Below are positions 29,539 to 40,419 of a stretch of DNA of 44,062 nucleotides, one piece after another. The stretch's first letter is position 1; each line of letters starts with the position of its first letter. Origin of the DNA: an uncultured Chthonomonas sp. (GTDB lineage Bacteria > Armatimonadota > Chthonomonadetes > Chthonomonadales > Chthonomonadaceae). The stretch is from contig CAIXIX010000539.1 of assembly GCA_903919615.1 (NCBI GenBank), positions 1 through 44,062 on the forward strand, given 5' to 3'. The notes below the pieces were generated by a model, which was not told where the DNA came from, made no database searches, and saw only the letters and a program-made list of their open reading frames with translations. Both the position numbers and the translations under genes were made by a program.

Positions 29539-29907
29539 TCAGGATTTATACCGATATCGTATTCGACCACGCTCAAGGTCGTACGGCGATAGTTCGACCA
29601 GAACTCGATCGCCTGGGAGAATTCGAATATAGTTCTGTCGCATCTTCCCCGAAACGTGAGCCAGGACGGTTTTCTTCTGGTCGCCAACTGGAATTTCAAC
29701 TCTGAACATCGCGTTCGGTAGGGCTTCGAGAATTACGCCCTCTATCTCGATACCTGGCTCCTTACCGCCTGTTTCATCTTTTTCAACAGGGGCCGGCTTA
29801 GGTCCAGGAGATGGTCTCGGTCCTGAAGGGGGCTTTGTTCCCGGACGGCGCACGCCGCCGGCTCCGCCTGCTCTTGGCGGCCCTCCCGGTCTTCTTGGTG
29901 GTGGCAT
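29539..29907 (-). CDS. infA: Translation initiation factor IF-1 with Pro/Gly arm
   Basis: IF-1 blocks the 30S A site during initiation. Residues 53-122 are the normal S1-like OB fold ([54 protein letters not shown]). The first 50 residues are a Pro/Gly/Arg/Lys-rich arm absent from typical 72-residue IF-1. The arm is real coding sequence: its ATG directly follows the map stop (TGA-ATG) behind GGAG, and no other start codon lies between the arm and the core. Confidence 0.94.
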
Positions 29908-34090: not shown

Positions 34091-34456
34091 TTAGAACTGC
34101 AGGCCAGCTTCGCGGGCGCCATCCGCCAGCGCCTGGATGCGCCCATGATACTTGTAACCGCCGCGATCGAAAACGATCGTTGTTACGCCCTTGGCCTGAG
34201 CACGCTCTGCCACCAGCTTACCAACTGCGCGAGCTGCCTCGACATTGCCGCCGGATTTAAGCGTGGTACGAAGCGTGGTGTCTACCGTAGAGGCAGAAAT
34301 CAGCGTAGTGCCCGTCGTATCGTCAATAAGCTGCGCGTAAATATGCTGGATGCTTCGAGAAACGTTGAGTCTCGGCCGCTCAGCGGTGCCGCTTACCTTA
34401 TATCGAACTCTTCGGTGCCGCTTCTTTCGAAGTAGCTCCTTATCCTGTAACTTCAT
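34091..34456 (-). CDS. rplR: 50S ribosomal protein L18 (uL18)
   Basis: L18 binds 5S rRNA and mediates its attachment to 23S rRNA. The 121-residue protein has [20 protein letters not shown], the [20 protein letters not shown] strand pair, and the C-terminal [20 protein letters not shown] ending AREAGLQF. The basic N-terminal arm contacts 5S RNA. An internal promoter and hairpin in the 139-nt spacer directly precede the gene. Confidence 0.97.
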
Positions 34457-34595
34457 TAGTAATGGTTTCCTCTCGCGTTGGATTGCCGACCCAACGCACT
34501 ATGCCATCTTTTGGATGTATCGTCGCGAGGGCTATTATACCATAGCGAGGCGCAGCCGACCCGGTAAGAGTCGACTGCACGCAAGCTGTGATAAA
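34457..34595 (-). promoter_or_regulatory. rplF-rplR spacer: internal promoter and GTCGGCAAT hairpin
   Basis: On the minus strand TGGTATAAT (hexamer 34539-34534) is an extended -10 element without a clear -35. About 37 nt downstream, GCGTTGG (34497-34491) pairs with CCAACGC (34481-34475) around the loop GTCGGCAAT. AGAGGAAA and the rplR ATG follow within 20 nt. The loop is identical to that in the rplE leader. Confidence 0.65.
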
Positions 34596-35993: not shown

Positions 35994-38072
35994 TTAATGC
36001 TCCGCCTCGCGCTCCTTCTTGTGGTTCGCGACGATCGTCTGTGCGATATGAGCCGGCACCTCTTCGTAATGAGAGTGCGTTGCTCCGAATGATCCACGTC
36101 CACGAGTAATGGATCGCAAATCTATCGCATATCGGAGCATTTCGGCATGCGGCACGTTGGCGGTAAGCCGGGTCTTTCCAGGTCCAGCCGACTCCGTGCC
36201 CACAATTCTTCCCCTTTTGCTGGTGAGGTCACTCATGACATCACCCAGCATCGTTTCGGGAATAAACACTTCCACAGTAAGTATTGGCTCTAGCAGCGTA
36301 GGGTTAGCCTTCGCGGCTACCGTAGTGAATCCTATCATGCCAGCCATAATAAATGCTGCTTCAGATGAATCTACGTCGTGATACGAACCGTCGTAACAGG
36401 TAACCTTAATATCGACTACCGGATATCCAGCCTGTATTCCCAACTGCATCGCCTGGTGAACGCCCTTCTCGACAGCCGGAATAAACTGTCGAGGGATAGA
36501 TCCACCAACGATAGCATCGACGTACTCATATCCATTCCCCCGGTTCGGCTCAACTCGTATCCAACAGTCTCCGAACTGTCCTCTACCGCCGGTCTGTTTC
36601 TTATGCCTGCCCTGTCCCTCAGCCTTGGTGCCAACTGTCTCTCGGTAGGGCACGCGGCGCTCAACTACTTCGAGGTTCGCGCCAAATTTCTTCATTCGTT
36701 CTACAACGATGGCAAGATGCGTCTCTCCGGATCCAGCTATAATCGTTTGTCCGGTCTCCGGATCACGATGGAACTGGAAGGCAGGGTCCGAAACCTCTAC
36801 GCGGTGCAACGCTGGCCCCATCTTGTCTTCGTCCACCTTGGATTTGGCAACAACAGCCTGCTCAAAGATCGGCGCAGCGAATTCAATCCCTTCCAATACA
36901 ATCGGGCTTCCACTATCACAAAGCGTATCGCCAGTTCTCGTGTCCGAAAGCTTGGCTGTTACACCGATGTCGCCTGCGTGGATCTCCTGAGTAATCTCCT
37001 GATCCTTGCCTCGGGCGTAGTAGATCTGGCCAACACGCTCTTCTTTGCCTCGAGAGCTGTTTAGTACAGTAGAGCCGGGCTTAAGGATCCCCGACATAAC
37101 TCGAAAGTAGCTGAGTGTTCCTAAATAGGGATCCGCAATCGTTTTAAATATCAGAGCCGATAGAGGAGCAGCATCGGTCGCAGGCCGCCGCTCGGCGGAG
37201 CCAGTTTGCGGATGGCGTCCATGAATATGTTCGATCTCGGTTGGATTTGGGAATTCATGAACGATAATATCCAGAAGATCCGTCATTCCAATATCGCGCG
37301 TCGCTGAACCACATAGCACAGGAACGACCTTGCCAGCGTCGATTCCCTCATGCAGCCCTCGCACAACCTCGTCATGCGTAAGCGTCTCACCGCTTAGAAA
37401 TTTTTCGAGTAGCTCATCATCGCCTTCTGCGGCCGATTCCACCAGAAGCTCGCGATACTTGTTGGCTTCTGAAAGCAGTTCACCCGGTATATCCGTACTG
37501 GCTATGTCTTTGCCAGCGCCAATAAAGGCTTTCATCTCGACGATGTCAATAACGCCGGAAAAATTCTCTGCGCTGCCAACAGGCAGCTGAAAGGGTGCAA
37601 TACAGTTACCATAACGATCACGCAAAAACTCAAGGATCTGTGCGAAGTCCGCATTCTCTCGATCCATTCGGTTAACAAAAACTGCGCGCGGCAGCGACCG
37701 TTCGGCTGCAAGTTCCCATGCATTTTCAAATCCGACTTCAGGCTCACTCTGAGCTGGCGTAACTAGAATCGCGGACTCAACGATAGCCATCGCGCTTGTT
37801 ACTTCGCCGCCAAAATCCAGATACCCAGGAACGTCGACAATGTTTATCTTTGCGCCATCCCACTCACAGGGGGCAAGCGCAATATTGATGCTGATGCGCC
37901 GTTTGTGCTCTTCCGAGTCAAAGTCGCAGGTGGCAGTTCCGTCATCGGTCCGACCCAGACGATCAATCTTACCGGAAACGTACAGCAGGGCTTCCGCCAG
38001 GGACGTCTTACCAGCGCCTTGATGCCCGAACAGACCTACGTTCCGGATCGAACCGATCCCGTAGCTTTTCAT
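35994..38072 (-). CDS. Elongation factor G-like GTPase (EF-G paralogue)
   Basis: The 692-residue protein has all five EF-G domains: G1 GHQGAGKT (16-23), a switch-I region with RRISI (58-62) where EF-G has RGITI, G3 DVPGY (80-84) in place of DTPGH, and G4 NRMD (134-137). The domain IV stretch [19 protein letters not shown] and C-terminal MRYAIDLRS-like end ([18 protein letters not shown]) are present. The DVPGY change removes the usual catalytic His, which places it with EF-G-like paralogues rather than the housekeeping translocase. It lies inside the spc operon between rplE and rpsZ, with a 377-nt structured spacer upstream. Its role may be ribosome recycling, tetracycline-type protection or a stress function. 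Confidence 0.9.
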
Positions 38073-38449: not shown

Positions 38450-39007
38450 CTACTTCGTGCGGAATGGCATTCCGAGCGCTTTAAGAAGTGCGCGGGCCTC
38501 TTCGTCCGTAGTAGCTGTGGTACAGACAATGATATCCATACCTCTTACTTTGTCGATCTTATCGTAATCGATTTCTGGGAATACTAACTGCTCCTTCATG
38601 CCCATGGCGAAATTGCCACGACCATCGAAACTGTTTGGCGAAATTCCCTGGAAGTCTCGGATACGCGCAAGCGTAATATTCACGAGTCGATCATAGAACT
38701 CATACATCTTGTCGCCGCGAAGCGTTACTTTGCAGCCGATTCTGGCGCCTTCGCGCAGCTTAAAGTTAGCGATGGACTTTCGAGCGCGAGTTACAACCGG
38801 CTTTTGTCCGGTGATAAGCGTCATATCTTTGACGGCGCCATCAAGTTCCTTCGAAGCTTCGCCCGCGCCTGTCTGGCCTGCACGGCCTACACCCATGTTC
38901 ACAACGATCTTATCGATCTTCGGAACCTGCATTACGTTTGCGTAATTGAACTGCTTGACGAGGGCAGGCACAACCTCGCTCTGATACTTTTCTTTTAATC
39001 GAGCCAT
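38450..39007 (-). CDS. rplE: 50S ribosomal protein L5 (uL5)
   Basis: L5 binds 5S rRNA and contacts P-site tRNA and the S13 bridge. The 185-residue protein shows [40 protein letters not shown], the [20 protein letters not shown] loop, and the C-terminus [20 protein letters not shown]. It follows rplX after a 110-nt spacer with a 12-bp hairpin and a second hairpin shared with the rplR leader. Confidence 0.97.
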
Positions 39008-39117
39008 TCTTCTTCTATCTTCCAGTTCCCATAAATTCGCCGATTGCCGACCGGCGAGGGGGAGAGATTATCTCCGGGCCGCACAGAGTATACACTATGC
39101 GACCCGAGAATTTGTAA
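39008..39117 (-). promoter_or_regulatory. Structured rplE leader with GTCGGCAAT hairpin
   Basis: In the minus transcript CGGGUCGCAUAG (39106-39095) pairs with CUGUGCGGCCCG (39086-39075) over 12 bp with two G-U wobbles. The 8-nt loop contains TATACT (39092-39087), a possible -10. Downstream, TCGCCG (39057-39052) pairs with CGGCGA (39042-39037) around the loop GTCGGCAAT, 30 nt before the rplE ATG. Confidence 0.65.
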
Positions 39118-39915: not shown

Positions 39916-40419
39916 TTATTTGGCCTTTTCGACGATCCGCACTACGCGCCACCGCTTCTCGCGAGAGAGCGGACGCGTCTCCATGATCTCGACAGTATCG
40001 CCTTCACCGCATGAGTTTTCCTCATCGTGGGCTTTAAACTTGGTAGTTCTCTTAAGAAACTTTCCGTAAAGCGGGTGTCGCTCTCGGCTCTCGACAGCAA
40101 CAACAACGGTCTTCTCCATTTTGCTGCTTACGACCTTGCCAACACGCACCTTGCGGCGTCCGCGTACTGGAGCTGGCTCTGCACCAAAGTCGATGACATC
40201 GATCTGGGGCGCGGCCGGTTCTACTACAGGCGCTGCTGCGCGATCGGCTTTAACTCGCGTTGCCTTTACGGGAGCAGGCGCTGGTTCTGCAACCGGCTCT
40301 GGTTCTGCAACCGGCGCTTCTTCTGTTGCTTCAACAGCGACGGGCTCAACTACTGCTGCTTCGATCGGCTCCACTGCGCTCGTCTCCGCTGGATCAGTTT
40401 GGGTTATCTCATCGGACAT
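39916..40419 (-). CDS. rpsQ: 30S ribosomal protein S17 (uS17) with acidic N-arm
   Basis: Residues 86-167 are a normal S17 OB fold ([60 protein letters not shown]). The first 85 residues are an Ala/Pro/Glu/Val-rich arm with repeated EPV and AEP units, so the protein is twice the usual length of about 85. The ATG directly follows rpmC by 3 nt, and there is no other start close to the core. The arm is probably disordered. Confidence 0.94.

Follow-up and report, generated by a model that had tools for sequence, protein, structure and literature searches.

A putative ribosomal protein leader resembling helix 84 of 23S rRNA upstream of rplE and rplR in Armatimonadota

Why would two ribosomal protein genes of a single cluster, rplE and rplR, carry the same nine-nucleotide hairpin loop in their leaders? 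The sequence-only reading of this DNA had reported an identical loop closed by two stems that differ in sequence while each remains self-complementary, and re-reading the minus strand of the window (the whole stretch of 44,062 nucleotides analysed here) confirms it (Table 1). The rplE leader reads TCGCCG-GTCGGCAAT-CGGCGA, with the 6 bp already described, and the rplR leader reads TGCGTTGG-GTCGGCAAT-CCAACGCG, where the stem is of 8 bp including one G.U pair rather than the 7 bp first listed. The placement of both hairpins 20-30 nt before the start codon was roughly right, as the gap between stem and start codon is 29 nt for rplE, and only 17 nt for rplR. The assignment of the genes to L5 and L18 agrees with their Pfam domains.

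Table 1. Hairpins, genes and leader signals of the rplE and rplR loci, in positions of the window
Feature	Position	Strand	Remarks
Helix-84-like hairpin, rplE leader	39037..39057	-	Loop GTCGGCAAT at 39043-39051; 6-bp stem
Helix-84-like hairpin, rplR leader	34474..34498	-	Loop GTCGGCAAT at 34482-34490; 8-bp stem
rplE, uL5 (presumed ligand and target)	38450..39007	-	Pfam PF00281/PF00673
rplR, uL18 (presumed target)	34091..34456	-	Pfam PF00861
GAGAGGAAACC with the likely rplR Shine-Dalgarno, abutting the 3' side of the stem	34464..34474	-	Purine-rich sequence there in most relatives
TATAAT, likely -10 of an rplR promoter	34534..34539	-	Similar element in 22/24 relatives
TATACT upstream of rplE, weak -10 candidate within another hairpin (39075-39106)	39087..39092	-	

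Across the leaders, the hairpin lies 10-30 nt upstream of the start codon, with a likely Shine-Dalgarno sequence directly 3' of it in most rplR leaders. The -10-like elements reported upstream were also recovered, TATAAT at rplR and a weaker TATACT at rplE. A TATAAT or TATACT element is found 41-81 nt upstream of the loop in 22 of the 24 rplR leaders, and no matching -10 was evident in those rplE leaders of relatives that were read. Judging from these elements, rplR likely has its own promoter behind the TATAAT, which would explain the presence of a second copy of the hairpin inside one cluster. Other structures were observed in both leaders. At rplE, the helix-84-like hairpin is immediately preceded by a second, longer hairpin with the TATACT in its loop region, and many rplR leaders have a variable extra stem-loop (34499-34533 in the window, minus strand) downstream of the -10 and ahead of the helix-84-like hairpin. 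We also considered whether the rplR leaders share a second conserved hairpin and rejected this, as such a structure exists but is variable and shows no consensus.

The shared loop is not a chance repeat of a common 9-mer. The assembly to which this stretch belongs (7.42 Mb, 614 contigs) contains 93 copies of GTCGGCAAT, all of which were inspected for a flanking stem. Only at two of them, the rplE and rplR leader sites, does the stem reach 5 bp; the next best stem has 4 bp, and 63 copies have no stem. Similarly, a covariance model built from the two hairpins, as the sequence-only reading had suggested, matches nowhere in the genome except in these two leaders. The same loop in many unrelated hairpins, which would have spoken against a specific signal, is therefore not observed in this genome, and no copy of the hairpin was found upstream of its rpmE.

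The hairpin is conserved among relatives. In the family of this genome (f1), which we take to be the Chthonomonadaceae (order Chthonomonadales, phylum Armatimonadota) because this genome has a Chthonomonadaceae MAG as its best named relative, the hairpin is present in all but one of 16 rplE leaders and all but two of 17 rplR leaders. Two further families of the order (f2 and f3) have it at rplR, so that the rplR conservation spans the order, and it was absent from the rplE leaders examined in these two families. A gapless alignment was obtained for 40 leader hairpins (16 rplE, 24 rplR). For rplR, pairing is seen in 98.4% of cells, and two-sided changes occur at six of the seven stem pairs. The covariation score of 0.743 was attained by none of 500 shuffles, which gave 0.262, and sliding controls scored far lower. 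The joint rplE and rplR set gives a similar score (0.739 against 0.235 shuffled, 0/500), although its number of pairs with two-sided changes is not above that of the shuffles. The outer part of the stem contains a bulge or mismatch in some rplE hairpins.

The leader loops follow the consensus G U C G G N (A/C) A U and are closed by a G-C pair; a rare A occurs at position 4 and, in one leader from outside the order, a U at position 3. Among relatives, all bases occur at position 6 and either A or C at position 7, so the element is not a fixed 9-mer, and the identity of position 6 between the two loops of this genome is partly luck. Indeed, position 6 often differs between the rplE and rplR loops of one genome, and no lock-step variation of the two loops was seen. 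Nevertheless, seven to eight of the nine loop positions are constrained over at least eight families while the stems vary freely. The covariation among relatives thus supports the idea of a conserved RNA ligand site with compensatory stems, common to the uL5 and uL18 leaders, and the opposite pattern, in which close relatives would lack the loop and the compensating stem changes, was not found: the loop is kept and the stem covaries.

How far does this element extend? A covariance model (R2), into which no association with rpmE was built, was run over 291 Armatimonadota genomes and recovered the hairpin in further families, before rplE and rplR and also before rpmE, the gene for bL31. At E<=0.05 and outside the training leaders it gave 12 matches, some of them from sister genomes; nine of the 12 immediately precede rplE, rplR or rpmE. 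Weaker matches correspond to more rplE and rplR leaders in four families (f4, f7, f14 and f15). One genome (G076) has the hairpin upstream of all three genes and another (G159) upstream of rpmE only. The hairpin is thus not confined to the two 5S-binding proteins, since in some families it also precedes rpmE. A fixed scan gave 16 matches in 90 leader windows (not a prevalence, as the scanned genomes were partly picked for having R2 matches) against 3 in the remaining 569 kb of the same loci, or about 0.001 per window. A pattern scan of rplE loci outside the Armatimonadota, nearly all labelled Bacillota, found none upstream of rplE or rplR, and in 36 genomes (two labelled Armatimonadetes) that were reached via these loci, R2 had just two weak matches (E 0.48 and 0.95). 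One strong R2 match (L320, G193:C23:120783-120807, E 0.015) has no ribosomal protein gene downstream; its stem continues further and a T-rich stretch comes next, so that it resembles a transcription terminator.

The source of the motif seems to lie in 23S rRNA. The pattern GU(C/U)GGN(A/C)AU, closed by G-C and with a stem, has a single match in the 16S, 23S and 5S rRNAs of E. coli MG1655, CCUG-GUCGGACAU-CAGG, with its loop at 23S positions 2304-2312, which belong to helix 84. Likewise, its single match in a Chthonomonadaceae rRNA operon is in the 23S rRNA (CCUG-GUUGGAAAU-CAGG), and randomised rRNA sets matched in 20 of 3000 cases. The pattern was matched nowhere in 16S rRNA, and no 5S hairpin of E. 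coli or Armatimonadota matches it. Other Armatimonadota 23S rRNAs agree at the same helix, and loop positions 3, 6 and 7 are variable in the rRNAs as they are in the leaders. A model built from leaders only was run on seven Armatimonadota 23S loci and scores this hairpin in four of them. Two points count against the helix 84 reading: position 3 of the Armatimonadota helix 84 loop is mostly U, while it is C in the leaders, and the best-known RNA partner of uL5 is 5S rRNA, helix 84 being a further contact. In ribosome structures, residues 73-80 of uL5 contact helix 84 (PMC10531944), and bL31 contacts uL5 at bridge B1b (PMC10931766). The leaders thus appear to be a case of rRNA mimicry, as both loop sequence and structure match helix 84, the sole match in rRNA. 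The earlier idea of a shared ligand is retained, whereas the copied RNA would be helix 84 of 23S rRNA and not 5S; its connection to the 5S particle is an indirect one through uL5, which touches both.

The 23S rRNA of the genome studied here is absent from its assembly. In another genome (G013), the loop of a 23S fragment exactly matches that of its rplR leader, a match of little weight because the fragment may be a contaminant. Two small records labelled as E. coli plasmids (NZ_AP027888.1, L405, and NZ_AP027616.1) carry a 23S rRNA annotation and match an Armatimonadota 23S query at ~85%, against ~80% for E. coli 23S; they are probably contaminant rDNA.

The hairpin is a conserved, covarying structure directly 5' of ribosomal protein genes, as in the ribosomal protein leader (r-leader) class, whose members would also bind a ribosomal protein encoded in the transcript they regulate and alter expression when that protein is in excess. 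Our main reading, to which we give a probability of roughly three in four, is that the rplE and rplR hairpins are one such leader element copying helix 84, to which uL5 or a uL5-uL18-5S particle would bind and block initiation. The protein binding the leaders would be uL5, and the outcome would be translational repression. When uL5, alone or within the uL5-uL18-5S particle, exceeds nascent 23S rRNA and 23S sites become scarce, the surplus would bind the helix 84 copy in the mRNA. The hairpin abuts the Shine-Dalgarno sequence in most rplR leaders, within reach of a bound 30S, so its occupancy should block initiation on rplE and rplR, and likewise on rpmE where the element is present. The proteins of the central protuberance would thereby follow the rRNA supply, and in Armatimonadota L5, L18 and, in some relatives, L31 are probably matched to the amount of rRNA by such a feedback switch. 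In a broader version, possible but rather doubtful in our view, one helix 84 mimic before separately encoded genes would constitute a trans-acting regulon, in which the uL5-uL18-5S particle senses free 23S docking sites and jointly sets uL5, uL18 and bL31; ribosomal protein control would then be exerted by an RNP intermediate instead of a single protein.

The distribution of the element must be weighed against the choice of uL5. In f2 and f3 only rplR has the hairpin and in G159 only rpmE, so that uL5 would act there on genes that are not its own, while classic autoregulation predicts the element at rplE. The same leader and the same repression logic could instead serve another protein of the central protuberance, uL18 or bL31, which would suit these genomes; leaders of bL31 have also been described from other phyla (PMC7247131). 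However, the mimicked site is helix 84, and the protein that the literature consulted shows in contact with it is uL5 (PMC10531944); a neighbour common to all three would also be the simpler reader of one motif shared by their genes, making this change of ligand unlikely. Still less probable is a structural element without any protein ligand, such as a 5'-end stabiliser or spacer structure. Small stable hairpins are indeed common near mRNA starts and the folding energy of the isolated hairpins is moderate, but the constraint on the loop with freely varying stems described above, the restriction to three functionally linked genes and the equivalence to an rRNA hairpin contacted by protein all argue against this explanation.

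Sensing of 5S rRNA, by base pairing with the hairpin or by copying part of 5S, was rejected as highly improbable. The loop portion UCGGCA is complementary to UGCCGA of the E. coli 5S, yet the Armatimonadota 5S has CCCGAA at that place; complementarity to 5S spans only 4-6 nt (5 nt for the loop studied here, mostly 4 nt for the common loops of relatives), is not conserved, and is accompanied by no 5S hairpin match. The rplE leader is also the place of the uS8 operator of the E. coli spc operon (PMC10931766), a position that speaks for an operator of that type. This is the least credible of the alternatives, since the hairpin has no match in 16S rRNA, which harbours the uS8 site (h21), also occurs upstream of rplR and rpmE, and has no Rfam match. 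Nor is it another known Rfam leader (L31, S8 or others): neither the window nor nine leader loci contained a match at the gathering threshold of any Rfam 15 family, and at E<=10 only unrelated chance matches were retrieved.

The helix 84 mimic is therefore best read as an uncatalogued ribosomal protein leader, within the sources covered here. The terms uL5, L18, rplE and Armatimonadota do not appear in the 2020 list of 20 new r-leaders, which assigns its five L31 leaders to bL31 (PMC7247131). A 2023 review describes spc control by uS8 in E. coli and gives it as unknown in B. subtilis and other species (PMC10931766). No uL5 leader was found in the open literature, searched at the level of article texts. 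The element resembles the uL1 and bL20 leaders, which are also short RNAs near a ribosomal protein start resembling 23S sites (PMC10931766) with presumed feedback repression, but here helix 84 is copied, the presumed ligand is uL5, and two to three genes that need not be cotranscribed are preceded by it. It shares the spc cluster, the rplE start and rRNA mimicry with the E. coli uS8 operator (PMC10931766), which differs in its sequence and rRNA source, as it mimics 16S h21 and binds uS8. The five bL31 (rpmE) motifs are likewise single hairpins before rpmE, and L31 contacts uL5 and 5S; in contrast, each of these motifs occurs only in phyla other than this one and is presumed to bind bL31 (PMC7247131), and the Armatimonadota rpmE leaders have no Rfam match. 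Finally, autogenous regulation of E. coli bL25 (rplY) is also feedback on a 5S-binding protein, although with another protein and gene (PMC10931766).

Neither uL5 as presumed ligand nor helix 84 as rRNA site was found in the r-leader papers searched. The element offers a concrete, testable candidate in another phylum, which would tie together three proteins building one corner of the large subunit. It would also provide a minimal RNA of 21-25 nt for studying the recognition of helix 84 by uL5 or the 5S particle in the course of late 50S assembly.

The genomic context of the two leaders displays some additional features, all on the minus strand. Within the spc cluster, a gene for an EF-G-like GTPase with Pfam EFG domains (35994-38072) separates rplE from the subsequent small-subunit protein genes. 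Long low-complexity N-terminal extensions are present in two other ORFs of the window, one that is uS17-like by eye (39916-40419) and one identified by Pfam as IF-1 (29539-29907).
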